Of a DNA stretch of 39,946 nucleotides, positions 1 to 30,819 are shown piece by piece (position 1 is the first letter of the stretch; each line of letters starts with the position of its first letter). Where the stretch lies: contig JAGWQH010000016.1 in assembly GCA_028870115.1 (NCBI GenBank), forward strand, positions 1 through 39,946, given 5' to 3'. The position numbers were made by a program, and so were the translations under genes. The stretch comes from Candidatus Methylomirabilota bacterium. Its GTDB lineage: Bacteria > Methylomirabilota > Methylomirabilia > Methylomirabilales > Methylomirabilaceae. The notes beneath the pieces were generated by a model, which ran no database searches, was not told where the DNA came from, and saw nothing but the letters and a program-made list of their open reading frames with translations.

Positions 1-1040
1 GACCACGGTCCCGACCAGTTGTGATTACCGTTACTGTCGATGATTGTAGCCTTTGAGACCATTGTCTCTGCCCATGCGAGGGCTCGTTCCAGATATTTCA
101 CATCGTGTGTGGCTTCATACATGGACAGCGTCCCGCCGAAGACATATTGGAAGGTGTAGTACGTCCCCCCATCGCCACTCGCCGCCATCGCATCAAGTGT
201 GGTTTGATTATTTTGGTACTCAGCATCGTAGATAGCCTGATAGTAAGAAACGGTTTCACCGCCGGCGCCTGCGCTAGCAGTCGTGAATGTATAGTCACTC
301 GAGAGCGCCGCATTCCCGGCGGCATCCTTGGACTGTACTTGGAAGTGATATGCCTTGCCTGCGGTCAATCCGCTCAGTGTGACGGCGTGGCTCGTCACAA
401 GGGAACTGTTGAGCGCTGTCGCGCTGCCGTAGGCAGCGGTGGTCCCATAGTCTGCCTGCGAGGTGCTTGACTTATCTGTGTTCCAGGTGACAGTGGCACT
501 ACTGGCGGTGATACCAGAGCTGGTTACGGAACTAATCGTGGGTGGGGTTGAGTTCTTAATGGAAATTGCTCCAGAAGAGGCGATATTATTGCTCTCATTG
601 CTCTCATTGATGACATTGGTCGAATCGGCGACCACGACCACATAGAATGTGCCGCTTGCAGTTGATCCGGGAACGGTGAAGGAGGTGACAAGCGCCACGC
701 TCGCGCCGGCCGCGAGACTCGATATATTCTGAGTACCCAGCACAGCCGCGCCAGTGGTGCTGGAAGGGCTCTTGGAAAGATAATACGCAACGCTAAAGGC
801 GTTCGAAGCCGCAGTGCCTTGATTCTTGATGGTGTCGGATACGACGATGGTCGCGCCTGAAGAGGCCGATGAGGGGGCGCTGACGGCGGGCACGGTCAAG
901 TCCGGCTTTGACCTTCGATAGTAAGCCTCGGCATGACCTGCAACGAGTTCCGTGAAGCACAGTGTGAGGGCGAGGGCGAAGGCAACCCGAAGCAGTAGGG
1001 GAAGACCAACCAGGCGGGATGTGAACTTGGCTGAATACAT
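1..1040 (-). CDS. Secreted CARDB / fibronectin type III protein, C-terminus cut by window edge
   Basis: The reading frame runs from ATG at 1040 off the left edge without a stop, giving 346 residues. Residues 1-39 look like a signal peptide (basic start, hydrophobic core, AGHAEA cleavage region). Residues about 46-160 resemble a CARDB adhesion-type beta domain (PDLTVPAVSAP, then NQGTAAS and VVADSTNVINES). Residues about 165-255 resemble a fibronectin type III domain (PTISSVTSSGITASSATVTW, ending in DYTFTT). From residue 265 the sequence turns helical and aromatic (VSYYQAIYDAEYQ, LERALAWAETMV), like the beginning of an alpha/alpha-toroid carbohydrate-active domain, but the catalytic part is outside the window. 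The start is fixed by an AAAGGAG ribosome site 8 nt upstream, which lies inside a regulatory hairpin. The gene is controlled by a sigma-54 promoter and a c-di-GMP riboswitch, so a role in surface or matrix formation is likely but unproven. Confidence 0.8.
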   Translation of the reverse strand, partial: MYSAKFTSRLVGLPLLLRVAFALALTLCFTELVAGHAEAYYRRSKPDLTVPAVSAPSSASSGATIVVSDTIKNQGTAASNAFSVAYYLSKSPSSTTGAAVLGTQNISSLAAGASVALVTSFTVPGSTASGTFYVVVVADSTNVINESNESNNIASSGAISIKNSTPPTISSVTSSGITASSATVTWNTDKSSTSQADYGTTAAYGSATALNSSLVTSHAVTLSGLTAGKAYHFQVQSKDAAGNAALSSDYTFTTASAGAGGETVSYYQAIYDAEYQNNQTTLDAMAASGDGGTYYTFQYVFGGTLSMYEATHDVKYLERALAWAETMVSKATIIDSNGNHNWSGPW

Positions 1041-1043
1041 GAC

Positions 1044-1088
1044 AACCGCTCCTTTCACTGAAGGTCGCTTTCCGTGAAAGGAGCGGTT
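1044..1088 (-). promoter_or_regulatory. Ribosome-site sequestering hairpin (riboswitch expression platform, copy 1)
   Basis: In the minus-strand RNA a perfect 15-bp stem pairs AACCGCTCCTTTCAC (1088-1074) with GTGAAAGGAGCGGTT (1058-1044) around a 15-nt loop. The 3' arm contains the ribosome binding site AAAGGAG at 1055-1049, and the ATG follows at 1040. When the stem forms, translation should be blocked. There is no U-tract after it, so it acts on translation rather than termination. The same 45 nt occur unchanged at 7987-8031. Confidence 0.85.
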
Positions 1089-1098
1089 GGTGTGGCCG

Positions 1099-1196
1099 CC
1101 CTTCCTTTCTTCGGTAACCCCGCTGTCAGCCCGATTGCTGATCGGTGGCTTTGCGTCCCAGCCTCGCGGCTGGTTTGCCTTTATCGGAAAGGACCC
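1099..1196 (-). promoter_or_regulatory. GEMM-I cyclic-di-GMP riboswitch aptamer (copy 1)
   Basis: The minus-strand RNA contains the conserved GEMM-I blocks in order: AAAGGCAAACC, a GCGA tetraloop hairpin closed by CCAGCC/GGCTGG, GGGACGCAAAGCC, and AGCGGGGTTACCG. The closing P1 stem is formed by TCCTTTC and GAAAGGA. The base matching Vc2 position 20 is G and the base matching position 47 is A, which is the c-di-GMP-type signature rather than the A20 of cGAMP-sensing variants. Against the copy at 8042-8139 the tetraloop stem changes by C to T and keeps pairing as a G-U wobble, and the tetraloop changes from GCGA to GTAA, both of the GNRA type. This shows selection on structure. Confidence 0.93.
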
Positions 1197-1215
1197 TTCT
1201 ATGCCAGATAAGATA

Positions 1216-1231
1216 AGCAATGGTTGTGCCA
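1216..1231 (-). promoter_or_regulatory. Sigma-54 (RpoN) -24/-12 promoter, copy 1
   Basis: The minus strand reads TGGCACAACCATTGCT. The GG (-24) and GC (-12) dinucleotides have the exact 10-nt separation required for RpoN, and the blocks TGGCAC and TTGC match the consensus. Transcription should start near 1205, just ahead of the riboswitch P1 stem, leaving a leader of about 165 nt. The same 15 bases (TGGCACAACCATTGC) stand in front of the other riboswitch at 8159-8174. Confidence 0.85.
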
Positions 1232-1368
1232 GTTCATTACCATGACGCGAGTTTTGCATAATCGCCATCGGGCTCCGTGTTTTTAAGGAGTTCCGTGAAT
1301 TTCTTGGCAGGGAAGAATGATTCATGGATTAATGGTCTCCTTTTGAAATGAGGGTATGGTGGCTCTGA

Positions 1369-1396
1369 CGTGACAGATATCGTCACGTTAGTGACG
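1369..1396. promoter_or_regulatory. Paired palindromes, probable sigma-54 activator binding site (copy 1)
   Basis: Two overlapping perfect palindromes, CGTGACAGATATCGTCACG (1369-1387) and CGTCACGTTAGTGACG (1381-1396), lie about 140 bp upstream of the -24 element. That is the usual distance for an enhancer-type activator. The second has the form GTCA-N6-TGAC, the same arrangement as the FleQ box of Pseudomonas. A similar GTCA-N6-TGAC palindrome lies at the same distance from the second sigma-54 promoter (8322-8337). The identity of the binding protein is inferred only from this pattern. Confidence 0.6.
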
Positions 1397-1586
1397 TTTG
1401 GTGTCCTGAGGAAAGACAGGCACTAATCTGCGATCGCCCCAAGCCGGATCGAGTTGCAGAGAGGTGGTGAGATGTGAAAAACGTTGTACTGGACTGCGGC
1501 GATGGACGTGCTAAATTATAAATGAAGCCACGAGCCGCGTAAGCGGGGAACATCTCCTCCTCCTGGGTGGGATGTTGTGGTTTCAG

Positions 1587-1626
1587 GAGGCCGCGACGGG
1601 CGCAATCCGTTGCGGCCTCGTTTTTT
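1587..1626 (+). terminator. Strong intrinsic terminator on the plus strand
   Basis: A 13-bp stem (GAGGCCGCGACGG with CCGTTGCGGCCTC, one G-U pair) with a 7-nt loop is followed by G and six T. No protein gene on the plus strand ends near it. The preceding 80 nt contain further hairpins (CCGC-GTAA-GCGG at about 1533-1544 and AACATC/GATGTT at about 1548-1576), so it may end a short structured RNA starting near 1515. Confidence 0.7.
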
Positions 1627-1667
1627 GGTTAGTCTGTCTTGAATGTTTCTGCCCCCGCACCCATCCC

Positions 1668-1703
1668 GAAATCCCCCCTATCCCCCTTTACTAAAGGGGG
1701 GGG
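1668..1703. repeat. C-run/G-run palindromic dispersed repeat (family A)
   Basis: A block starting GAAATCCCCCC and ending AAAGGGGGGG folds on itself. It is a divergent member of a family also found at 1789-1850, 2187-2295 and 5786-5900. Confidence 0.6.
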
Positions 1704-1788
1704 ATGTTGCCGGAGGCCGTATCTTTCATGGCCATGGGCGTGCCACCGGCGCACGGGTATTGCCGCGAATCTCCCTGGCCTCCGCTCT

Positions 1789-1850
1789 GAAATCCCCCTC
1801 GGTCCCCCTTTTTTAAAGGGGGAGGCTACTAGAGGTGTCGTGCGATGTGC
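1789..1850. repeat. Dispersed repeat family A with tail
   Basis: The block begins GAAATCCCCCTCGGTCCCCC, continues with a T/A stretch and AAAGGGGGAGGCT, then the tail GTCGTGCGATGTGCGCC. Core and tail are shared with 5786-5850, which shows that the unit is longer than the simple hairpin. No gene overlaps it. Confidence 0.65.
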
Positions 1851-2186
1851 GCCGGTAGGATGCTACGCAATTGCTGTACCAGGGATGTTCGAGGGCTGGT
1901 CGTCTAACTGGGGATGGCTACAGAGGCTTTCGTGTCAGTGAGTTGCGAGCAGCAGGCTGGACGGAACAGGGATGAGGGAATCGGCGGATGCGCCGGACGG
2001 AAGAGAAGGAACTACATCGCTAAAGCGAAGAAATTACTCGTAGAACCTGTCCTGCAAACCCCGTTTACCCTTGTACATGCTCAGGGCGAACGGTAAGGGC
2101 ATTGAAAAGAGTGACGGCAGTGGGTTCAGTACAGCCAAATCATTCTACAAGTTGAGTGAGTTATTACTCAGAGCATAAAATAGCTT

Positions 2187-2295
2187 GCTCCCTCCTTTCG
2201 CAAAGGGGGGTAAGGGGGGATTTGAACAATCAGGAAATCCCCCTCAATCCCCCTTTTTAAAGGGGGAGGCTGTTTGAGATGTCGTGCAAGAGTGC
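2187..2295. repeat. Head-to-head pair of family A repeats
   Basis: An inverted copy (about 2187-2222, ending AAGGGGGGATTT) faces a forward copy (2234-2270, AAATCCCCCTCAATCCCCC followed by AAAGGGGGAGGCT), about 11 bp apart. The forward copy again has the GATGTCGTGC tail. The surrounding 1851-2445 has no gene I can support. A block GAAGGAACTACATCGC at about 2006-2021 recurs at 5860-5875, with a weaker match at 8396-8408. Confidence 0.65.
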
Positions 2296-2445
2296 AATCT
2301 AGCTAGCGCTCCCCGTAATAAGACACCACCTATCAGAGATAGCAGGCTCTGCCCGGCATCGTTCGGTCTGTGCCATGCCTGACTCAAGTTGTGCAAATCA
2401 GAATTATAACTTGCTTTCTGCACAGACCTGGAGCATTATCGCGCC

Positions 2446-3636
2446 ATGATCACTCGAGACATTTCGGAAGAACTTGTCAGATCCGCCGTGGAGTATCCTG
2501 TGGTGACCATCCTGGGTCCCCGCCAATCAGGCAAGACCACGCTGGCCAGGATGACGTTTCCGGATAAACCATACTTTTCTTTGGAAGATCCTGATGTCCG
2601 GATCGCAGCTGAGGCCGATCCACGAGGATTCCTCAGTCAGGTGGAAGGCGGCGGCATCCTGGATGAGGTGCAGCGTTTTCCGGCGCTGCTTTCCTACGTC
2701 CAAGGGATGGTTGATAAAGCCCCCACGCGCGGTCGGTTTATCCTGACCGGCAGTCATCAACCGCAACTGCACGAGGCAATTAGTCAGTCGCTCGCGGGCC
2801 GAACCGCCATACTGACGCTGTGGCCGTTCTCGCTGCACGAGTTGGGCCGCTACACCTCCGCGCGTGACCCTTTCGGCCTGATCGTTCGCGGATGCTTTCC
2901 GAGGCTTCACGAGGAGGGTTTGGAACCCCGCAGGTTTTTCAACGGCTACCTGCAGACCTACGTCGAGCGCGATGTGCGCGCGTTGATCCAATTGCGCGAC
3001 CTGTCGCAGTTTCAGCGGTTTCTCACGTTGTTAGCGGGCCGGGTGGGCCAGATCGTCAACCTCGCTTCGCTCTCCAGTGATGTCGGTGTATCTGCTATGA
3101 CCATCAGGAATTGGCTCTCCGTTCTGAAAGCGTCGTATGTTGTGTTCGAGCTGCCACCGTTCTTCGAGAATATCCGAAAGCGTGTGATCAAGTCCCCAAA
3201 AATATTTTTCACGGATGTGGGTCTCGCAACCTTTCTGCTGGGCATCCACACGGAACAACAGGCATCCCGCGATCCCTTGCGCGGAAGTCTGTATGAAAAC
3301 CTTATCATTACGGATATCGTGAAAGGTGCTCTCAACAAGGGGATCAGGCCTGAGCTATATTTCTTCCGCGACTCCCACGGCAACGAGGTCGATTTGCTCA
3401 TCAGGGAAAAAGGCGTAATGACGCCGATCGAGATCAAGTCCGCGGGGACGTTTTCCGTAGATTTCGTCAAGGGGGTAGAGCGGTTTCGAGCGCTGGGGAT
3501 CACGCGCGGCTCCGAAGGCGCGGTCCTCTATAACGGCGAGCAGCAGTTCGCTGTCCGAGGCGTCCGCATTTTCAATCCGCTCCTTGTTGACAACATCTGG
3601 GAGACCCTGACCGCTCATCCGGCAGCCACGAGTTGA
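2446..3636 (+). CDS. AAA-family ATPase with DUF4143 C-terminal domain (first copy)
   Basis: This 396-residue protein has a Walker A motif GPRQSGKTT at residues 24-32 and a Walker B motif ILDEVQ at 71-76, typical of AAA_14 ATPases. Its C-terminal half matches the DUF4143 type: NIRKRVIKSPKIFFTDVGL near residues 242-260, and then RDSHGNEVDLLI with PIEIKS near 308-330, which looks like a restriction-nuclease-type E-x-K core. The role of the family is unclear; members are widespread and often sit in mobile or accessory regions. The last seven codons overlap a degraded fragment of a metalloprotease gene on the other strand, so the present C-terminus may be recent. A second member of the family lies at 29641-30819. 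No convincing ribosome site precedes the ATG. Confidence 0.88.
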   Translation: MITRDISEELVRSAVEYPVVTILGPRQSGKTTLARMTFPDKPYFSLEDPDVRIAAEADPRGFLSQVEGGGILDEVQRFPALLSYVQGMVDKAPTRGRFILTGSHQPQLHEAISQSLAGRTAILTLWPFSLHELGRYTSARDPFGLIVRGCFPRLHEEGLEPRRFFNGYLQTYVERDVRALIQLRDLSQFQRFLTLLAGRVGQIVNLASLSSDVGVSAMTIRNWLSVLKASYVVFELPPFFENIRKRVIKSPKIFFTDVGLATFLLGIHTEQQASRDPLRGSLYENLIITDIVKGALNKGIRPELYFFRDSHGNEVDLLIREKGVMTPIEIKSAGTFSVDFVKGVERFRALGITRGSEGAVLYNGEQQFAVRGVRIFNPLLVDNIWETLTAHPAATS

Positions 3637-3731
3637 TCGGCGATCGCTTCCCAGTCGGATCGGGGGATCGAGAGGTAGTGGAAGGTGAAATAGTGGGCCA
3701 GCTCGTGGAGCAGAAGGGTGCGGCGTGGAGA
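3615..3731 (-). pseudogene. C-terminal fragment of a HELAH metalloprotease gene
   Basis: On the minus strand this reads RTLLLHELAHYFTFHYL, then RSDWEAIAD and a stop at 3617-3615. It is almost the same as the last 35 residues or so of the intact gene at 7489-7983 (RTLLIHELAHYFTFHYL, RSQWEAIAD). The similarity stops upstream of about 3731 with no start codon, signal peptide or riboswitch. It is therefore a truncated duplicate. Its 3' end overlaps the end of the ATPase gene on the plus strand. Confidence 0.85.
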
Positions 3732-3865
3732 GGCTGCGGAGGAAGCTTATGTCGAGACCTTCTTCAATAGCTATTTTACAAAGCCGTCGGTCTGATGAGA
3801 CAAAGGTAAGGTTATCACGCCTGAAGTTTAAGGCGATAGCAAGTTGAATGCTATTGATCCATGGG

Positions 3866-3953
3866 TTTCGACCATAAGGTGTGCTATAGTGATTTTCGAC
3901 TATTCTGACAATAATTTAGCTATTTTCGACTATAGTAAAGGATTCTCGACCAA
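3866..3953 (+). promoter_or_regulatory. Fourfold TTTTCGACTAT direct repeats before fic
   Basis: Four related blocks precede and touch the fic start: TTTCGACCAT (3866), TTTTCGACTAT (3893), TTTTCGACTAT (3923) and TTCTCGACCAAT (3943). Their TCGA cores are 28, 30 and 20 bp apart, so several lie on the same face of the helix at multiples of about ten. The last block runs into the start codon. This looks like a multi-site operator. A TATAGT box at 3885 or 3931 could be the -10 element, but no good -35 is visible. Confidence 0.55.
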
Positions 3954-5533
3954 TGAAGCTTGGCCCGGCTCCTCTCACAGTCTTCCAGGAAAAGACCGTC
4001 CCCAACGGCACCAGACTGGCCGGCTGGGCGGCGCTCGTCCATGCGCTCGCTATTCCGGGGCCGGTTCGGCGGCCGAGTTGCGTCTCGGAGCAGCACGTTC
4101 GCGGGAGCCGTCGGAAAGAGGGAGTCTGGGCCGTTTTTGATAAACGCTACTGGCCAGGCGATACCTTTGCCGATCACCTGACTTTTGCGCTCCGCCATGA
4201 AGACATTGATCTCCTGATCCTCAAGCGGATCTTCGAGGCGGTGGCGCAGGCGGAGATCGAGGCCATTGTCCGCGCCACGCCGACCGGCATTCCGGCGCGC
4301 CGCGCGTGGTATCTCTACGAAACCCTGACCGGCCGAACTCTTCACGTGGAAGATGCGCCGCGCGCCGCGGCTATCGATGTTCTTGACCCCAAGGCGTACT
4401 TCACGGGCAAGCCGCGTCTCTCGAAGCGGTACCGCGTACGCGACAATCTCCTGGGTACCGGTCGTTTCTGCCCCATCATCCGGCGTACCAAAGTGCTCAC
4501 GGAATTCCTGGCACTTGACCTTGCCGCCAGGGCAAGGGACACCGTGGGGTGCACCAGCGCCCACCTGGTTGCGCGTGCCGCTCGTTTCATGCTGCTCGCC
4601 GACAGCCGGGCCAGTTTTGAGATTGAGGGCGAGCGCCCGCCGCGCAACCGGCTGGAGCGATGGGGCAGGGCGGTCCTGCAAGCCGGAAAGAACCGCCTCA
4701 CACTCGATGAAATCATCCGCCTTCAGCGCGTCCTTATCGAGGACACGCGATTCGTACGCGCCGGTCTGCGTCCCGACGGCGTCTTTTTAGGCGAACGGGA
4801 CCACCACGGCGACCCGCTCCCGGAATTCGTCGGTGCAAGGCCTGATGATCTGAACAATCTTATAGGCGGCTTGCTGGAGGCGAACGACCGCATGCGCGAT
4901 GACGGCATTGACCCGGTGCTGAAGGCGGCGGCTACCGCTTTCGGCTTCGTCTATGTCCATCCGTTCCAGGACGGCAACGGGCGTATGCACCGCTGCCTGA
5001 TCCATCACGTCCTCGCCGAGCGGAAATTTACGCCGTCGGGGATGGTATTCCCGGTTTCCTCTGTGATGCTGGACCGCATCGATGATTATCGCGCAACGCT
5101 GCAGGCCCATTCCGGCCCGTTGATGCCTTTTATCGAGTGGCGGCCCACACTTGGGCACAACGTCGAGGTCCTCAACCAGACTGCCGACCTTTACCGTTAT
5201 TTCGATTGCACGGAAGAGGCGGAGTTTCTGTATGCATGCGTTGCACGCACCGTCGAGCACGATCTGCCGCGCGAGATCGACTATCTGCGCCGTCACGACG
5301 AAGCGACCCGCCGGATCATGGACGCGGTCGACATGCCGGACCGAGTTGCTGAAAACCTCGTACTGTTCATCAGGCAGAACAATGGCACTCTGTCCAAGAA
5401 TCGCCGTGAGGGCGACTTCAAGAAGCTGAGCGAGGAGGAAGTGACTTTCATTGAAGGCATCGTCCGCGAGACCTTCGAGGGCTTCGATCAGGGTTCCGGC
5501 CGTCATGGCATCGGGGCTGACACGAAGTCGTAG
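3953..5533 (+). CDS. Fic-domain protein, probable AMP transferase
   Basis: This 526-residue protein contains the Fic catalytic loop HPFQDGNGRMHR at residues 336-347. Fic enzymes usually transfer AMP from ATP to hydroxyl groups of target proteins. An inhibitory helix motif SFEIEG (pattern S/T-x-x-x-E-G/N) lies at 221-226, ahead of the Fic core, which is the class II self-inhibited arrangement. The first 150 residues resemble no domain I recognise, and the last 100 are charged and could be a winged-helix region. The ATG at 3953 has AAAGG about 13 nt upstream. Target and physiological role cannot be read from the sequence. The gene stands alone behind a repeated operator and is not paired with a separate antitoxin, consistent with built-in inhibition. 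Confidence 0.9.
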   Translation: MKLGPAPLTVFQEKTVPNGTRLAGWAALVHALAIPGPVRRPSCVSEQHVRGSRRKEGVWAVFDKRYWPGDTFADHLTFALRHEDIDLLILKRIFEAVAQAEIEAIVRATPTGIPARRAWYLYETLTGRTLHVEDAPRAAAIDVLDPKAYFTGKPRLSKRYRVRDNLLGTGRFCPIIRRTKVLTEFLALDLAARARDTVGCTSAHLVARAARFMLLADSRASFEIEGERPPRNRLERWGRAVLQAGKNRLTLDEIIRLQRVLIEDTRFVRAGLRPDGVFLGERDHHGDPLPEFVGARPDDLNNLIGGLLEANDRMRDDGIDPVLKAAATAFGFVYVHPFQDGNGRMHRCLIHHVLAERKFTPSGMVFPVSSVMLDRIDDYRATLQAHSGPLMPFIEWRPTLGHNVEVLNQTADLYRYFDCTEEAEFLYACVARTVEHDLPREIDYLRRHDEATRRIMDAVDMPDRVAENLVLFIRQNNGTLSKNRREGDFKKLSEEEVTFIEGIVRETFEGFDQGSGRHGIGADTKS

Positions 5534-5785
5534 AGACCAACCTTATAGTGGTGATGATCGATGTGGTTTTCTTGCTACGCGTGTTTTATGGGCTGGTGGG
5601 GAAGTATACTCCTCAATCAGTGGACCCTCGTGCTCAACGGACCACACCAAGTCTTCGAACTGCACTGAGAGGATTCGCTAATGTCCTGAGTCGGAAGTGT
5701 GGTGCAAAAGTCTGCGCTCCATGTATCCTTAATTTCTCCGAAAGTTCCCCCGCGTCATTGCTCAGCAAGTCTTTCGTTCCCGTCT

Positions 5786-5900
5786 TGAAATCCCCCTCGG
5801 TCCCCCTTTTTAAAGGGGGAGGCTGCTAGAGATGTCGTGCGATGTGCGCCGACGTACGGGAAGGAACTACATCGCGCGGTCTGTAAAACCTACCATGGCA
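5786..5900. repeat. Dispersed repeat family A with long tail
   Basis: The core GAAATCCCCCTCGGTCCCCC plus AAAGGGGGAGGCT is followed by GATGTCGTGCGATGTGCGCC and by GGAAGGAACTACATCGC. It shares the first part with 1789-1850 and the last part with about 2006-2021. The stretch 5534-6091 has no other feature I can support. Confidence 0.65.
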
Positions 5901-6091
5901 GATGTTACGGTGAAGACCTACCTTTTGTTAGGCGGGGTTGCAACCGGGGCATGACGGGCGCTGGAGCGTGTGGATTCCGACCTTCGCGGGTCTGATCGAG
6001 GGTCACATGAAAGAAGGAGCGCCGCGGAACGTTCCTGTTTGGAAGTTGATCCGGGCGGTGGACAGCAGGCTCGTGGTGGCCATGAGGACGT

Positions 6092-6496
6092 TCAGATCGG
6101 TGTATGCAACATGATCGGAAGGTAAGCAGCATAGAGTGGAAAGTCTTTGTCTGTCGTGAAGATGGCAAGCTTGTGGTGAATGGCGACCGCGCAGATGAGA
6201 AAATCAGTGTTTGAGCCCTGAATCCCTTTCGTGCGGCAGAGGTTAAAGAACCGAGCTGCCGTAACATGATCGTCGGTTGCGATTGGCAGGTCTGGGAAGG
6301 CGGCCAGATGAACCGCCAGTGTTTTGAATTGCGCCTCGTCACGAATACCTGAGAGGAGTTCTTGCCGAATTGGTCCGATCATGCACACTCGGCCGTCGGA
6401 GATCAGGTTGCGGAGTTCCACGGCCGGCGCGGAAGCGCTCTGGCCCTTGCGGCGGAGCGCCAGAGACCACACGCTGGTGTCCACCAGGACCTTCAT
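6092..6496 (-). CDS. vapC: VapC-type PIN-domain toxin
   Basis: This 134-residue PIN protein keeps the acidic quartet expected for a metal-dependent RNase: D6 (VDTSVW), E46 (RQELLSG), D98 (NTDFLI) and D116 (TDKDF). Length and layout fit VapC ribonucleases, which cleave tRNA or rRNA. Its start ATG (6496) overlaps the stop of the upstream antitoxin gene by 4 nt, the usual translational coupling of vapBC pairs. All key residues are intact, so it should be active. Confidence 0.92.
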   Translation of the reverse strand: MKVLVDTSVWSLALRRKGQSASAPAVELRNLISDGRVCMIGPIRQELLSGIRDEAQFKTLAVHLAAFPDLPIATDDHVTAARFFNLCRTKGIQGSNTDFLICAVAIHHKLAIFTTDKDFPLYAAYLPIMLHTPI

Positions 6497-6693
6497 CGGC
6501 GCGCGCGCTGCTTTTTGTAATCGTATGTGGGATCGTAGTCGATCGTCCCGAATAGCGAGCCGATCTTGTCCTGCTCTAAGCGGTGGATGTAGTCGATCAG
6601 GGCCTGGGTGACCGCGGCTTTTTTTGTCCGGTGTTTGCCAAGCCTTACGGCCTGCGTGATCAGCGCGTCATCAATTTGAAGATTGGTCGCCAT
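6493..6693 (-). CDS. vapB: VapB-type antitoxin
   Basis: This 66-residue protein starts at ATG 6693, chosen because GGAGGTG stands 6 nt upstream; a farther start at 6708 would overlap that site. The N-terminus (MATNLQIDDALITQAVRLGK, followed by T-K-K-A-A-V-T-Q-A-L) is a short DNA-binding fold of the kind seen in VapB/DUF2191 antitoxins. The C-terminus (GSLFGTIDYDPTYDYKKQR) is rich in aromatic and charged residues and would wrap the toxin. It overlaps vapC by 4 nt and is likely autorepressed through the inverted repeat at its promoter. Confidence 0.9.
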   Translation of the reverse strand: MATNLQIDDALITQAVRLGKHRTKKAAVTQALIDYIHRLEQDKIGSLFGTIDYDPTYDYKKQRARR

Positions 6694-6742
6694 ACAGATC
6701 ACCTCCACACATATCTGTACACTGATGAATGTGTGATGTCAA
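6691..6742 (-). promoter_or_regulatory. vapBC promoter with inverted repeat over the ribosome site
   Basis: On the minus strand TTGACA (6742-6737) is followed after 17 nt by TACAGA (6719-6714). An inverted repeat TACAGAT ... ATCTGTA spans 13 nt; its second arm reaches into the start codon and the loop contains the ribosome site GGAGGTG. It could be the VapBC operator, an RNA hairpin, or both. Confidence 0.55.
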
Positions 6743-6802
6743 GCCCTCTTCACTAGGGCGGGGTTCCGAGGTGGGCAGCGCAACGCCCACGATGGTTCCG
6801 GC

Positions 6803-6892
6803 TTACGCCTTTATGACCTTGTCTCGGGGGATGCCTTTGAAGGCGTTCCGCGTCGTTACGATCAGAGGGGCGCGCTGAGTAGTCTCTTCGCG
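6803..6892 (-). pseudogene. C-terminal relic of a VapC/PIN toxin
   Basis: The minus strand reads RAPLIVTTRNAFKGIPRDKV-IKA-stop. This matches the usual end of VapC proteins (LVTRN, then F-x-GIP and a V-I pair before the stop). An in-frame stop precedes it at 6895-6893 and no catalytic start exists. It lies just downstream of the ribbon-helix-helix gene at 6908-7165, so that gene has lost its toxin. Confidence 0.65.
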
Positions 6893-6907
6893 TTAAAGGC
6901 GGAAGTC

Positions 6908-7165
6908 TCAAGAGGGGAAGCGGTGGAGGGCCTCACCCAAGTACGTGTCGTGGTGCTCGGAGATATCTTGACGGCCACTCGAGCCTAAGGCGACGATCTT
7001 CAGGTACGTCTCCGTGGGAAGGAGAGGTAGCCCTTGGCGCTCTTCCAGGTGCTGTTTCACAAGACGTCGCATGAGCTCAGCCAAGGAGATTCGCTGTGCC
7101 TTGGCCTCAGCCCGCAAGGCTTCGAGCTGTTCAGGGTCGAAATATGCCATTGTCCGCGCTTTCAC
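6908..7165 (-). CDS. Orphan ribbon-helix-helix (CopG/RHH) protein, probable antitoxin
   Basis: This 85-residue protein begins with a typical ribbon-helix-helix: TMAYFDPEQLEALRAEAKAQ, then RISLAELMRRLVKQHLEE. Such dimers bind palindromic operators. The GTG start at 7165 has AAGGAG 7 nt upstream. The second half (LPTETYLKIVALGSSGRQDISEHHD) is the kind of tail that contacts a PIN toxin. Downstream only a relic of a VapC gene remains, so it is an antitoxin without a working partner or a stand-alone repressor. A perfect 16-bp palindrome over its -10 box suggests self-repression. Confidence 0.8.
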   Translation of the reverse strand: MKARTMAYFDPEQLEALRAEAKAQRISLAELMRRLVKQHLEERQGLPLLPTETYLKIVALGSSGRQDISEHHDTYLGEALHRFPS

Positions 7166-7192
7166 CGTTCACTCCTTTTGAGGTGTTACAAA

Positions 7193-7225
7193 TAGCATTA
7201 TAATGCTAATGTCAGATATATCCAA
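7193..7225 (-). promoter_or_regulatory. Promoter of the RHH gene with palindromic operator
   Basis: On the minus strand TTGGAT (7225-7220), 17 nt spacer and TATAAT (7202-7197) form a good housekeeping promoter. The -10 box is centred in the perfect palindrome TAGCATTATAATGCTA (7193-7208). A repressor bound here would block RNA polymerase directly. Transcription should start near 7190, about 25 nt before the GTG start. Confidence 0.7.
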
Positions 7226-7252
7226 TATTTTCCGGAGCTTGGGACCCTGCCA

Positions 7253-7325
7253 TGAGCTTTGTCGAAGGGTCGGTCTTAAACATCCAAGCCGTTTCCTTCG
7301 ACCAGCTCATGACGAACGACTGGGG
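7253..7325. repeat. Inverted dispersed repeat with TCGAA cores (family C)
   Basis: ATGAGCTTTGTCGAAGG (7252-7268) faces CCTTCGACCAGCTCATGACG about 30 nt later. The same style of element is at 11720-11805 and 17520-17590. The region 7226-7488 holds no gene I can support. Confidence 0.5.
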
Positions 7326-7488
7326 GATGTCGAGGGGCTAATCACGAACGGAAGATGAAGGGATTTATCACGCACTACTTATGCAGTCTTCTTCACTGTT
7401 ATAACCACTTTGATCTGTCGACCCGCCATGTCAGGCTTCCTGTTTATACGCCGCAGCAGATCCTGGGCTGACAATGGTGGCCCAGCTC

Positions 7489-7983
7489 TCAACCCCCAGA
7501 CTCTTCGGCATCGACGACCTTATCGGCGATCGCTTCCCACTGGGAGCGGGGAGCAGACAGATAGTGGAACGTGAAATAGTGGGCCAGCTCGTGGATCAGA
7601 AGGGTACGGTCGAAATGCGGAATCAGGATCCTGTTTGCATGAGGGACGTAGAGTGCGAGGGCGATACCAGCCTGCGCCTTGGCCGATCGGCCGAGCCGGA
7701 GATACTCCTGATGGATCTGGGCAGGGGAGACGACGAGTACCTGCGGCCGGGGTTTGGAAGGGTCCGGAGTGATGCCCATGAGACGGGCGACATCGAGATA
7801 GACCTGGTCAACCGTATTCGGGTCGATTTCGCGGTCACTGAAGTTCAGGATGTCGGCGTGGAGCCCCGCCCGAACACCCGGACTGGCCAGATACTGAACG
7901 CTGCCAAGGCACCCCTGGAGCAGAAGGGGTAGCAGAACCAGCGCACAACCAACGAGGTAGGATCGTACCTGGAGTGCAAACAT
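7489..7983 (-). CDS. c-di-GMP-controlled lipoprotein with HELAH zinc-protease motif
   Basis: This 164-residue protein starts at ATG 7983, fixed by AAAGGAG 8 nt upstream inside the regulatory hairpin. Residues 1-25 form a lipoprotein signal with lipobox LLQG before Cys25. HELAH at 131-135 followed by YFTFHYL is a short zincin-type HExxH metal site, and E150 in WEAIAD could be the third ligand. The protein is small for a peptidase, so it may be a minimal metalloprotease or a metal-binding surface protein; no family name is recognised with certainty. It shares the sigma-54 promoter, riboswitch and hairpin module with the gene at 1-1040. A truncated duplicate of its C-terminus is at 3615-3731. 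Confidence 0.85.
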   Translation of the reverse strand: MFALQVRSYLVGCALVLLPLLLQGCLGSVQYLASPGVRAGLHADILNFSDREIDPNTVDQVYLDVARLMGITPDPSKPRPQVLVVSPAQIHQEYLRLGRSAKAQAGIALALYVPHANRILIPHFDRTLLIHELAHYFTFHYLSAPRSQWEAIADKVVDAEESGG

Positions 7984-7986
7984 GGC

Positions 7987-8031
7987 AACCGCTCCTTTCA
8001 CTGAAGGTCGCTTTCCGTGAAAGGAGCGGTT
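7987..8031 (-). promoter_or_regulatory. Ribosome-site sequestering hairpin (expression platform, copy 2)
   Basis: It is the same 45 nt as at 1044-1088: a 15-bp stem with a 15-nt loop whose 3' arm holds AAAGGAG (7998-7992), followed by the ATG at 7983. Even the loop is unchanged, although the genes behind the two copies differ. Confidence 0.85.
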
Positions 8032-8041
8032 GGGAGTGCCG

Positions 8042-8139
8042 CCCTTCCTTTCTTCGGTAACCCCGCTGTCAGCCTGATTGCTGACCGGTGGCTTTGCGTC
8101 CCAGCCTTACGACTGGTTTGCCTTTATCGGAAAGGACCC
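8042..8139 (-). promoter_or_regulatory. GEMM-I cyclic-di-GMP riboswitch aptamer (copy 2)
   Basis: It contains AAAGGCAAACC, a GTAA tetraloop closed by CCAGTC/GGCTGG, GGGACGCAAAGCC and AGCGGGGTTACCG, with the P1 stem TCCTTTC/GAAAGGA. The base matching Vc2 G20 is G, supporting c-di-GMP. It is 98 nt long like copy 1 and differs at only a few positions, mostly in helices where pairing survives. Confidence 0.93.
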
Positions 8140-8158
8140 TTCTATGCCAGTTAAGATA

Positions 8159-8174
8159 GGCAATGGTTGTGCCA
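8159..8174 (-). promoter_or_regulatory. Sigma-54 (RpoN) -24/-12 promoter, copy 2
   Basis: The minus strand reads TGGCACAACCATTGCC with correct GG-N10-GC spacing. It lies 20 nt upstream of the riboswitch P1 stem, exactly as in copy 1. The sequence upstream of -24 is unrelated to that of copy 1, so the conserved unit ends at the promoter. Confidence 0.85.
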
Positions 8175-8310
8175 ATAGACCGTCAGGCTATTGCTGTTCT
8201 ACCATTGGAAATGACTCCACTATTTTCACCAGGTTACGTTGATATGCCGGGATGGATGATCCCGAATGCAAGACCAGACATGCTGAAGGATTCAGGTACT
8301 GCAGTTCCGC

Positions 8311-8337
8311 GTCACAATTTCTGTCACGCTGATGACA
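8311..8337. promoter_or_regulatory. GTCA-N6-TGAC palindrome, probable sigma-54 activator site (copy 2)
   Basis: TGTCACGCTGATGACA at 8322-8337 is a perfect TGTCA-N6-TGACA palindrome about 150 bp upstream of the -24 element. A further GTCAC half-site stands at 8311. Copy 1 has CGTCACGTTAGTGACG in the corresponding place (1381-1396), where the bases between are not otherwise conserved. Confidence 0.6.
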
Positions 8338-8495
8338 AAATGAGGTCAGAGCGAACGGGTGTGTGGGATCGGCGTACGCGATGTGGAGAAAGAGGGAGGA
8401 ACTACATTACTCGGGTTATAAAAATTACCATTCGTCGGCTGCGGCGATACACCGGGATTACCCGATTGCCTGGAGGGAGAGGAGGTCTTTATTGG

Positions 8496-8529
8496 TCCCC
8501 CCTCGCCTCGGTTGGAGGGGAGGGGGGGG
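8496..8529. repeat. C/G-rich inverted repeat downstream of the ligase gene
   Basis: CCCCCCTC and GAGGGGGG form a stem of 8 bp around about 15 nt. It lies 30-65 nt after the stop of the minus-strand gene at 8560 and could act as a transcript end, but it has no U-tract. The stretch 8175-8559 otherwise holds only the activator site and a divergent copy of the block GGAACTACATC at about 8396. Confidence 0.4.
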
Positions 8530-8559
8530 TGAGGAGGGACTTTCTGGGCAATGATGTCC

Positions 8560-10011
8560 TTAATTCTGTTCCTGGTTATCATACAGTGACGGGCGCTCAG
8601 GCTGACCGTTCACAGCTCGTCCTGGCGAGATAACGCGAACCGCGTTGAGCGTGATAGCCAATACCGTGACCGTGACGATAGCGTTTGCCGGGATATGCAG
8701 GTTGAAATCCGTAAGGCTGTGGATGAGCATAGCAAAGACGGCAGTCATGCCGGCCAATGTCATGATGCCGGCAAACGGATCTTGGCGCACCAGCCACCTT
8801 CCGAACAGATCTCGATACCAGACAATGAGGCACCAGATAACGAGGCAGAAAGCGCCGATGCCGCCTTCAGCCAGCAGTTGCAGGTAATCGTTGTGTGCGT
8901 ATTGGAAAATCATCTGGGCAGTGGAGGTCTTGTATGTCGGGAACACTTCTTCGAAGGTGTTGAAACCGGAACCCAAGCGGAGATAATCCCCGGCCATCCG
9001 AAGGGTGTCTTGCCAGAGAATCGATCGCTCTTCCACAGTTGGTTCCTGAAATGTTTGTTCGAGCCGTTCCATCGACAGGAATGCGCGGTTTCCCCCCATC
9101 CACACGGCGGCGATCAGCACGAGGCCGAAGAAAGCAAGCGCCAGCCGCCTCCCCTTTGAATGCGATGCTCGCCTCATTGTCGCCATGACAACGAAAAACA
9201 CCATGGAGCCTACGAAACTGACAAGGCCGCCGCGAGAGCCGGTCAGCAATAACGCGGCGCCCATAAATATCGCGGCAAACATAAGCAGCACCGATTTACT
9301 GGTCTGCTGGGAGGTCCACAGGAGGAATCGTTGCCTGATGGTGAGACGCCCCTTGCGTACGGGAGCCTGGACCAAGAGATATCCAATGGTCAACGGGATG
9401 GCAATCTCCATGTAGCCGGCGAAATGGTTCCTATTAACATAGGGGCCAAAGGGCAACCCGCCATACGGCAGCACGTGAACCCAGTAGATCTTACCGCCTC
9501 CGGAAAAAAGTTGCGTGATCCCGAGCACCGCCAGAAACAGACCCATGCCGATGATGATAACGATAACCCTCTCGATCTCTCTGCGCTCCCGGAAGTTGTT
9601 GAATAGGATCCAGAACAGCGCGACGTAGGCCAGAACTCTCAGGAACTCTTCACGGGTGGCGATCGGATCGAGTGAGATCGTCCGCCATCCCATCTGAAGA
9701 TTAAGGGCAGATGCGCCATCGATGTAGACCGAATACGCTGCAGGCGAAAGTAGCCTGATCGCACTCAAAGGTAAGGGGAGCATTTGCAAGAGCATCAGAG
9801 TCAGAAGAAGAAACACCGGGGTATTCAGCGCTGTTGGCTGGAATTCGATTGCTCCATCCCGTATCATCCGAAGGGTCCAGATAACCCCCATGAAGAGTAC
9901 CAGTAATTCGGCGATTGCGATGGACCAGACCTCGACGGTGCCGAAGGCGAGCGGCGTAAAAATCAGCAGGGCGGCAAGCATCCATGGGAGGAGACGGTCG
10001 AAGAAGGGCAT
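8560..10011 (-). CDS. O-antigen ligase / polysaccharide polymerase-like membrane protein
   Basis: This 483-residue protein has about ten to twelve hydrophobic segments spread along its length (LLPWMLAALLIFTPLAFG at the start, VTVTVLAITLNAVRVI at the end). It has a long periplasmic loop around residues 320-385 with the Wzy_C/WaaL-type stretch RSILWQDTLRMAGDYLRLGSG, FNTFEEVFP and AHNDYLQLLAEGGI. This H-N-x-Y-L-x-x-x-x-E-x-G pattern is characteristic of O-antigen ligases and Wzy polymerases, which join sugar chains on the outer face of the inner membrane. No other glycan genes adjoin it, so ligase and polymerase cannot be told apart. It ends 221 nt upstream of the activator site of the c-di-GMP-regulated lipoprotein, which may be coincidence. 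Confidence 0.88.
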   Translation of the reverse strand: MPFFDRLLPWMLAALLIFTPLAFGTVEVWSIAIAELLVLFMGVIWTLRMIRDGAIEFQPTALNTPVFLLLTLMLLQMLPLPLSAIRLLSPAAYSVYIDGASALNLQMGWRTISLDPIATREEFLRVLAYVALFWILFNNFRERREIERVIVIIIGMGLFLAVLGITQLFSGGGKIYWVHVLPYGGLPFGPYVNRNHFAGYMEIAIPLTIGYLLVQAPVRKGRLTIRQRFLLWTSQQTSKSVLLMFAAIFMGAALLLTGSRGGLVSFVGSMVFFVVMATMRRASHSKGRRLALAFFGLVLIAAVWMGGNRAFLSMERLEQTFQEPTVEERSILWQDTLRMAGDYLRLGSGFNTFEEVFPTYKTSTAQMIFQYAHNDYLQLLAEGGIGAFCLVIWCLIVWYRDLFGRWLVRQDPFAGIMTLAGMTAVFAMLIHSLTDFNLHIPANAIVTVTVLAITLNAVRVISPGRAVNGQPERPSLYDNQEQN

Positions 10012-29640: not shown

Positions 29641-30819
29641 TCAATGAGAGCGCGTTCGCATCTTGCGACTCGTATTCCTCTGCACGTACTGAAGGAAGGT
29701 CGGTAGGTTACAGGAGACGCGACGTTCGTCACCACTTGATCGACCGGTCTGTGAGACCAGGAAGCGGTGTGATGCCCTGATCATATCGGCGGTCCTGTCC
29801 AGGCGTGTCATATCCTCTATCGTAGGTGTGGAGGTCAGCTTGACCTCGACGGCCCACAATTCGTTCCCGAAATCCAGCACTAGGTCTAGCTCGTACTGAT
29901 CGCTTGTTCGGAAGTAGTAGGCGTCGGCCTGTCGTCCCCGCGCCGACAGTTCGCCCAGTACTTGTTCAATCACGAAGCCTTCCCAACTGGCGCCCACCCA
30001 CGGTTGCGTGAGTAATGCGCGCCCGTCGGGCACGTTCAATAACGCGTGGAGCAGGCCACAATCGCGCCAGTAGACCTTGGGACTCTTGATCAGTCGCTTC
30101 CGGATATTGGCGTGATAGGAGGGCAATCGTCTGATCAGGAAAGCCCCGGTAAGATACTCGAGGTAACCATTGACGGTATGGTACGAGAGCCCTAAGCTTT
30201 GCCCAACTTGCGAGGCGTTCCAGATCTGGCCGTGCAGCGCGGCTAGCATGCGCAGAAGCCGATCCGTTGTCTGCGGCTTGGCGGGTAGACCCCAGGTCGG
30301 AAGGTCGCGCTGACTCAGGAGCGAGAGGTAGTCCATTTGCCATCGCGGATATCGGGCGGGTTCCAACACGCCACCATCGGGGTAGCCCCCGCACAACCAC
30401 CGCCGCTCACGCGATGCGTTCGTTGAGAGTTCGGACAGTAGAAACGGCGTCAACTCGACCAACGACAGGCGCCCCGCCAGGGACTCCGACACGTGGATCA
30501 TCAGCGCAGGCGACACGGAGCCTAGAAGCAAGAAACGACCCATGCGCGCGCGATCCAGGTCGATGGCCCCTCTCAGGCGCGCAAAGACGTCAGGCCAGGA
30601 TTGGACCTCGTCCAGGACGATCAGGTCCTTTCCGGCCGTGATGCGGTCCCAGTCGAGGTCCAGGCGGAGACGCTCGGAGTGCTGTTCAAGGTCGAAATAG
30701 ACTCCACCGAGGGATTTTGCCAGGGTGGTCTTTCCGCTCTGACGCGGTCCGATCATGGCCACGGCTGGGTAGCGTGTCAGTCGTTCTCGTAGCTGGTCTA
30801 TAACCAATCGCCGGATCAT
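29641..30819 (-). CDS. AAA-family ATPase with DUF4143 C-terminal domain (second copy)
   Basis: This 392-residue protein has Walker A GPRQSGKTT at 24-32 and Walker B DLIVLDEVQ at 65-73. The DUF4143 half has NIRKRLIKSPKVYWRDCGLL and then YELDLVLDFGNELWAVEVK, the D-x-E-x-K nuclease-like core. It shares its whole layout with the protein at 2446-3636 but is clearly divergent, so the two are old paralogs and not a recent duplication. It stands alone next to a region of gene remnants. Confidence 0.88.
   Translation of the reverse strand: MIRRLVIDQLRERLTRYPAVAMIGPRQSGKTTLAKSLGGVYFDLEQHSERLRLDLDWDRITAGKDLIVLDEVQSWPDVFARLRGAIDLDRARMGRFLLLGSVSPALMIHVSESLAGRLSLVELTPFLLSELSTNASRERRWLCGGYPDGGVLEPARYPRWQMDYLSLLSQRDLPTWGLPAKPQTTDRLLRMLAALHGQIWNASQVGQSLGLSYHTVNGYLEYLTGAFLIRRLPSYHANIRKRLIKSPKVYWRDCGLLHALLNVPDGRALLTQPWVGASWEGFVIEQVLGELSARGRQADAYYFRTSDQYELDLVLDFGNELWAVEVKLTSTPTIEDMTRLDRTADMIRASHRFLVSQTGRSSGDERRVSCNLPTFLQYVQRNTSRKMRTRSH

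Follow-up and report, generated by a model that had tools for sequence, protein, structure and literature searches.

Positions 1040-1396 of a 39,946-nucleotide (nt) contig from a Candidatus Methylomirabilota bacterium (JAGWQH010000016.1, the whole of which we call the window) carry, in a single leader, a sigma-54 promoter, a riboswitch aptamer for cyclic diguanylate (c-di-GMP) and a hairpin that buries the Shine-Dalgarno (SD) sequence of a gene for an exported protein. This stack is conserved and is a rule in Methylomirabilia, not a single case. It probably serves as a two-input module in which a sigma-54 activator is combined with a c-di-GMP-sensing leader that works in the OFF direction, with the logic "activator present AND c-di-GMP low". 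The original prediction, made from the letters of the window alone, had described the stack correctly and had missed a second complete copy, the conservation across the class and a leader helix that competes with the hairpin.

All elements of both copies lie on the minus strand (Table 1). The two promoters, TGGCACAACCATTGC (1231-1217 and 8174-8160), have the -24 GG and the -12 GC at consensus spacing, as had been claimed for the first copy, and the transcription start site (TSS) predicted near 1205 fits in position, 12 nt downstream of the -12 GC. The pattern TGGCAC-N5-TTGC matches twice in the window, where shuffled sequences gave an expectation of 0.06 and reached two matches in 1 of 100 shuffles, and both matches stand upstream of an aptamer. 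These sites are present in the DNA; that they are used is what we infer. A sigma-70 promoter as the source of the leader was rejected, since no sigma-70-like site was found on the minus strand in 1-3000 or 7400-8700. The first aptamer, which had been assigned to GEMM-I, does score 72.9 bits with RF01051 (cut-off 35), the search proposed for checking it; the Rfam family that describes it best is the GGC subtype, RF03167 (69.4 bits, E=1.4e-14, cut-off 59). The bases that contact c-di-GMP can be read in both aligned aptamers as GGCAAACC, CGCAAAG and ACCG. We take these stretches to hold G20, A47 and C92 (Vc2 numbering). The predicted stem over the ribosome site is a hairpin of 15 base pairs (bp) without a mismatch between its arms AACCGCTCCTTTCAC and GTGAAAGGAGCGGTT; the SD sequence AAAGGAG (1055-1049) is buried in its 3' arm, and the ATG follows at 1040. 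We also rejected an intrinsic terminator as the output, because none was found on the minus strand in the same two regions and the hairpin has no U tract. The upstream palindrome, 150 bp ahead of the -24 element, and the secreted-protein gene, with its signal-peptide-like start, are both present.

Table 1. Elements of the two leader copies in the window and the genes that they precede.
Element	Detail	Position	Strand	Basis
First copy, palindrome	CGTCACTAACGTGACG (GTCA-N6-TGAC); candidate site of an activator (enhancer-binding protein)	1381-1396	-	sequence scan
First copy, sigma-54 -24/-12 promoter	TGGCACAACCATTGC; TSS expected near 1205	1217-1231	-	pattern scan
First copy, 5' leader strand	GAAGGGTCCTTTCC, including P1 5' strand; partner 1060-1073 in SD-open fold	1186-1199	-	
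First copy, c-di-GMP-I aptamer	GGC subtype	1109-1188	-	RF03167 69.4 bits; RF01051 72.9 bits
First copy, P1 3' strand and extension	GAAAGGAAGGGCGG; almost identical to the SD arm; potential pairing with anti-SD (10 pairs)	1096-1109	-	
First copy, SD-sequestering hairpin		1044-1088	-	sequence; minimum free energy fold; class-wide swap test
First copy, hairpin 5' arm	anti-SD	1088-1074	-	
First copy, hairpin loop		1073-1059	-	
First copy, hairpin 3' arm		1058-1044	-	
First copy, regulated gene	signal-peptide-like start; domains CARDB and fn3-like; truncated by contig end	1-1040	-	translation; Pfam CARDB E=8.2e-19
Second copy, palindrome	GTCATCAGCGTGAC	8323-8336	-	
Second copy, sigma-54 promoter	TGGCACAACCATTGC; TSS expected near 8148	8160-8174	-	pattern scan
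Second copy, c-di-GMP-I aptamer	GGC subtype	8052-8131	-	RF03167 74.3 bits; RF01051 79.6 bits
Second copy, SD-sequestering hairpin	identical 45 nt to first	7987-8031	-	alignment
Second copy, regulated gene	encodes a predicted lipoprotein (164 aa) with an HExxH motif; unmatched in Pfam	7489-7983	-	translation; Pfam

To place the stack in its lineage we searched relatives and outgroups, and found RF03167 matches in 60 of 148 genomes. The class, taken here as Methylomirabilis plus Rokubacteria (Methylomirabilia), contributed 100 aptamers with at least 300 nt of upstream sequence from 48 genomes. Of these 100 aptamers, 86 had a sigma-54 site with a matrix score of 10 or more 28-65 nt upstream, as compared to 0-5 in equal-sized windows farther upstream and 0.9 in Markov sequences. 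Because the matrix weights only approximate the consensus, the test was redone with exact patterns: in 95 class genomes TGGC-N8-TGC stood at the right spacing before 40 of 69 matches to the aptamer core, and a reversed-pattern control gave 0. The outgroups (8 aptamers in 6 genomes) have no sigma-54 site at that position; one of them, G136, has a site at 88 nt. These counts support a statistical tie between promoter and aptamer across the class that is not coincidental. A chance neighbourhood of the two, with the leader transcribed from another promoter, is hardly credible given a spacing that is conserved over the class and the lack of a sigma-70-like site on the minus strand in the two regions named above; chance co-occurrence was rejected on the class-wide counts, the exact-pattern repeat and the window shuffles.

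The second full copy in the window spans 7983-8336. In alignment the two leaders are near-identical from the -24 element to the start codon, hairpins included without a difference, and upstream of the -24 element they diverge except around the palindrome. No c-di-GMP-I aptamers other than these two were found in the source genome. The window genome (G000, 1109-8131) and a congener (G009, L036 3693-13095) each have a pair of aptamers that point the same way and are separated by about 7 kb. In both pairs a lipoprotein gene follows the first aptamer and a CARDB protein gene follows the second. Of this pair, other congeners retain only one.

An unbiased scan of upstream DNA across the class returned the same palindrome, GTCA-N6-TGAC, as its top dyad (13 loci, 0.5 expected). 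The exact motif stands 154-164 bp upstream of the -24 element in six loci of the genus, both window copies among them, and at 77-86 or 143 bp in a few Rokubacteria; G009a, a further genus leader of the same type, has no exact match. In the genome, palindromes with one mismatch showed no excess over those of a reversed control (4 vs 4 per strand); none of the three that lie elsewhere has a strong sigma-54 site at a fitting distance. The motif fits the FleQ box, which we take to be GTCA-N6-TGAC. The source genome encodes RpoN (Sigma54_DBD E=9.3e-62), three GGDEF genes above the cut-off and 11 full NtrC-type activators. Translations read by eye, with no search aimed at FleQ, showed a receiver-like domain at the start of all 11. 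The PilR-like activator L117 is present at 75-89% identity in 12 of 14 other genus genomes, including some that lack the aptamer; its phylogenetic profile is therefore uninformative, and naming the activator by this route was abandoned.

We then turned to the question of how the aptamer may reach the SD sequence. In a partner-swap test on 68 non-redundant class leaders, we compared the pairing of each strand with its own partner to that with partners from other leaders. Own partners paired better in the SD hairpin (-17.7 vs -13.7 kcal/mol, standard deviation 0.35, p<=5e-5), between the 5' leader and the anti-SD/loop region (-16.5 vs -14.5 kcal/mol, standard deviation 0.34, p<=5e-5) and in the aptamer helix P1 (p=3.5e-4). 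These p-values are optimistic because the test ignores kinship among the leaders. The leader strand of most Rokubacteria is GGGAAGACC(CC); its partner is the anti-SD GGTCTTCC, and it often reaches into the P1 5' strand. In the genus of the window, GAAGGTTCCTTTCC of the leader and GGAAAGCAACCTTC of the loop form 13 pairs in each of the 7 leaders, and the P1 3' strand GAAAGGAAGGGCGG forms 9-11 pairs with the anti-SD. By predicted pairing, the same competing-helix idea is thus built from different sequence in the two groups. G009a has GCGG changed to GCGA in the P1 extension, CCGC to TCGC in the anti-SD and GCGG to GCGA in the SD arm, and both competing helices are kept. Since the alternative helix of the genus uses the whole P1 5' strand, it excludes P1; this overlap and the class-wide swap test both point to an expression platform that is mutually exclusive with ligand-bound P1. 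The competing leader helix makes the hairpin a plausible switch, with the alternative helices resting on complementarity, partner swapping and folding.

In the mechanism that we propose, an enhancer-binding protein on GTCA-N6-TGAC would activate the sigma-54 polymerase at the -24/-12 promoter, and the transcript would start about 10-20 nt ahead of the aptamer. At low c-di-GMP, the 5' leader together with the P1 5' strand would pair with the loop region of the hairpin, and the anti-SD would be taken up by the P1 3' strand, such that the SD sequence would emerge from the polymerase unpaired and allow synthesis of the exported protein. With c-di-GMP bound, P1 would be held shut and the freed anti-SD would close on the SD sequence, which would stop translation. 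The ligand, the direction of the switch and its timing are presumed in this scheme.

Several observations weigh against this scheme. Mean SD accessibility over 73 leaders is nearly unchanged by P1 (+0.01), and at equilibrium the SD sequence of the window leaders folds closed with or without P1. Many Rokubacteria leader helices use part of the P1 strand only, so that both might coexist, and no activator could be pinned to the palindrome. Since equilibrium folding gave no effect of P1, we folded the window leader as a growing transcript. Between +46 and +60 nt past the aptamer the SD-open alternative is preferred, with pairing of the P1 3' strand and the anti-SD as the preferred intermediate; the advantage of the SD-open fold is about 8 kcal/mol from +46 to +56, and at +56 this fold has -62.7 kcal/mol and the fold with P1 forced -54.8 kcal/mol. 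At +60 the SD sequence is paired only if P1 is held, and from +64 both folds converge on the closed hairpin. If P1 is held by ligand during transcription, the SD sequence should therefore close, and without ligand it should stay open for a time. Given that the equilibrium fold is closed regardless of P1, switching in the window leaders must be kinetic. The possibility that the hairpin of this genome is simply locked, too stable for aptamer control and leaving the sigma-54 activator as the only input that matters, draws on the same equilibrium result and on the window hairpin, which with 16 pairs and about -31 kcal/mol is more stable than any other in the genus. We consider it improbable, as neither copy has lost the competing strands or any part of the aptamer, and the growing transcript still prefers the SD-open form as an intermediate.

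The same folding bears on the direction of the switch. When P1 was enforced in the 73 leaders, pairing of SD and anti-SD rose in 21 and fell in 2 (p=5e-7). This result speaks against the same module with c-di-GMP as the ON signal, in which ligand-stabilised P1 would stack on a helix of leader and anti-SD and pull the anti-SD off the SD sequence; so does the genus helix, which takes the whole P1 5' strand and excludes P1. The leader strand does immediately precede the P1 5' strand, and in some Rokubacteria P1 could thereby be lengthened by a helix of leader and anti-SD; blocking P1 raises pairing of the leader with the 3' region in 25 leaders and lowers it in 23, with folding compatible with an ON switch there. 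On balance this direction seems unlikely to us, and a translational OFF switch is favoured by the modelling, not proven.

Another cyclic dinucleotide, such as cyclic GMP-AMP (cGAMP), might be the ligand of an otherwise unchanged architecture. A G-to-A change at position 20 reportedly marks the cGAMP type, and AGC in place of GGC at the ligand-contacting stretch of five class aptamers might mark such a specificity. GGC is kept in both window aptamers and occurs in 91 class aptamers, and we give a ligand other than c-di-GMP little credence here. Relatives of GEMM-I in Geobacter are known to bind cGAMP (PMC8835794).

Among 76 downstream genes that follow a good leader, Pfam found fn3 (23), Big_7 (14) and other immunoglobulin (Ig)-like domains, along with response regulators (10), PilZ (2) and pilin N-methylation motifs (2). 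The products of these genes are predominantly exported or surface proteins, as expected for c-di-GMP, and across Methylomirabilia the same design stands mainly before genes for secreted proteins of the Ig/fn3 type and before some for pilins and response regulators. Some class riboswitches lie ahead of type IV pilin-like genes and others ahead of response-regulator genes (Rokubacteria loci L055 and L061). The window also contains intergenic short inverted repeats, AAATCCCCC...CCCCTTT..AAAGGGGG (1668-1828 and 2196-2272), possibly a repeated intergenic element, as well as genes for a Fic-domain protein (3953-5533) and two AAA_14/DUF4143 ATPases (2446-3636 and 29641-30819).

Beyond the class, a strict pattern (TGGCAC-N5-TTGC followed by the aptamer core) gave 18 matches in a collection of 84,980 species genomes. 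They include Desulfosarcina alkanivorans, Desulfatitalea, NaphS2 and Syntrophobacteraceae; further, single matches fall in records titled Myxococcota, Gemmatimonadota, Armatimonadetes and Ignavibacteria. Rfam confirmed the aptamer in all 15 loci not titled Rokubacteria. The Ignavibacteria record may be mis-binned, since it comes from the same soil series as Rokubacteria and its leader is Rokubacteria-like. In four Desulfobacterota genomes (L149-L167) the promoter was found at 7 of 7 aptamers of the GGCAAA type vs 1 of 12 of other types; four of the seven were the matches by which the genomes had entered the sample, and the unbiased count is therefore 3 of 3. Since the stack is a rule in the class and also occurs in other phyla, it is not a one-off. 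We suggest tentatively, at somewhat less than even confidence, that GGC-subtype c-di-GMP-I is a dedicated partner of sigma-54, and that promoter, leader strand and aptamer may form one inherited module across Methylomirabilota, Desulfobacterota and other phyla that would gate surface proteins by the rule "activator AND NOT c-di-GMP". Tandem c-di-GMP-I-GGC aptamers were seen behind one sigma-54 site in the Armatimonadetes record (L147 3973-4162) and without a sigma-54 site in L048 (G146).

A conserved fusion of this kind would place surface proteins under a clear two-input gate, in which a regulator protein and a second messenger would jointly decide on the synthesis of exported proteins. Its hosts are the nitrite-dependent methane oxidisers of Methylomirabilis and the uncultivated Rokubacteria, and the fixed spacing of promoter and aptamer provides a search rule for further sigma-54 targets. 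The claim that such a stack had no described case agrees with the open-access literature, in which we found no description of it (subscription papers fall mostly outside); the implied singularity does not hold. Among open-access papers, we also found none on riboswitches of Methylomirabilis or Rokubacteria. The parts are known: the aptamer is an ordinary c-di-GMP-I member, sigma-54 promoters are ordinary, and fn3 genes behind GEMM riboswitches are described in Geobacter (PMC2996986). As far as open-licence papers show, no riboswitch has been reported in fusion with a sigma-54 promoter, and the fixed fusion of both with a competing leader strand, as a class-wide rule, has no earlier description.

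Like c-di-GMP-I riboswitches in general (GEMM-I, RF01051/RF03167), the aptamer passes both models and lies in the 5' leader of exported-protein genes; it differs in the sigma-54 promoter at fixed spacing and in the leader strand that competes for the anti-SD. A close likeness is seen in Geobacter, where GEMM riboswitches precede genes for fibronectin-III proteins, so that a GEMM-I leader controls fn3-domain surface proteins there too; sigma-54 is not mentioned with these riboswitches in the sections available to us (PMC2996986; PMC13194489), and many Geobacter GEMM-I aptamers bind cGAMP (PMC8835794). Vc1 and Vc2 of Vibrio cholerae and Bc1-Bc5 of Bacillus are likewise class-I c-di-GMP aptamers in 5' leaders (PMC4744006, PMC11218506, PMC4759541), and the genes concerned in Bacillus include one for a collagen-adhesion protein (PMC4933901). 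In the abstracts of these papers sigma-54 control is not described; Bc1 is reported to use terminators, whereas the output here would be SD pairing. The stack also resembles the FleQ-type c-di-GMP-responsive sigma-54 activators in coupling c-di-GMP to sigma-54-related control. In those systems the FleQ protein senses c-di-GMP; in the present stack that sensing would fall to the RNA, and receiver-like domains are found in the full activators.
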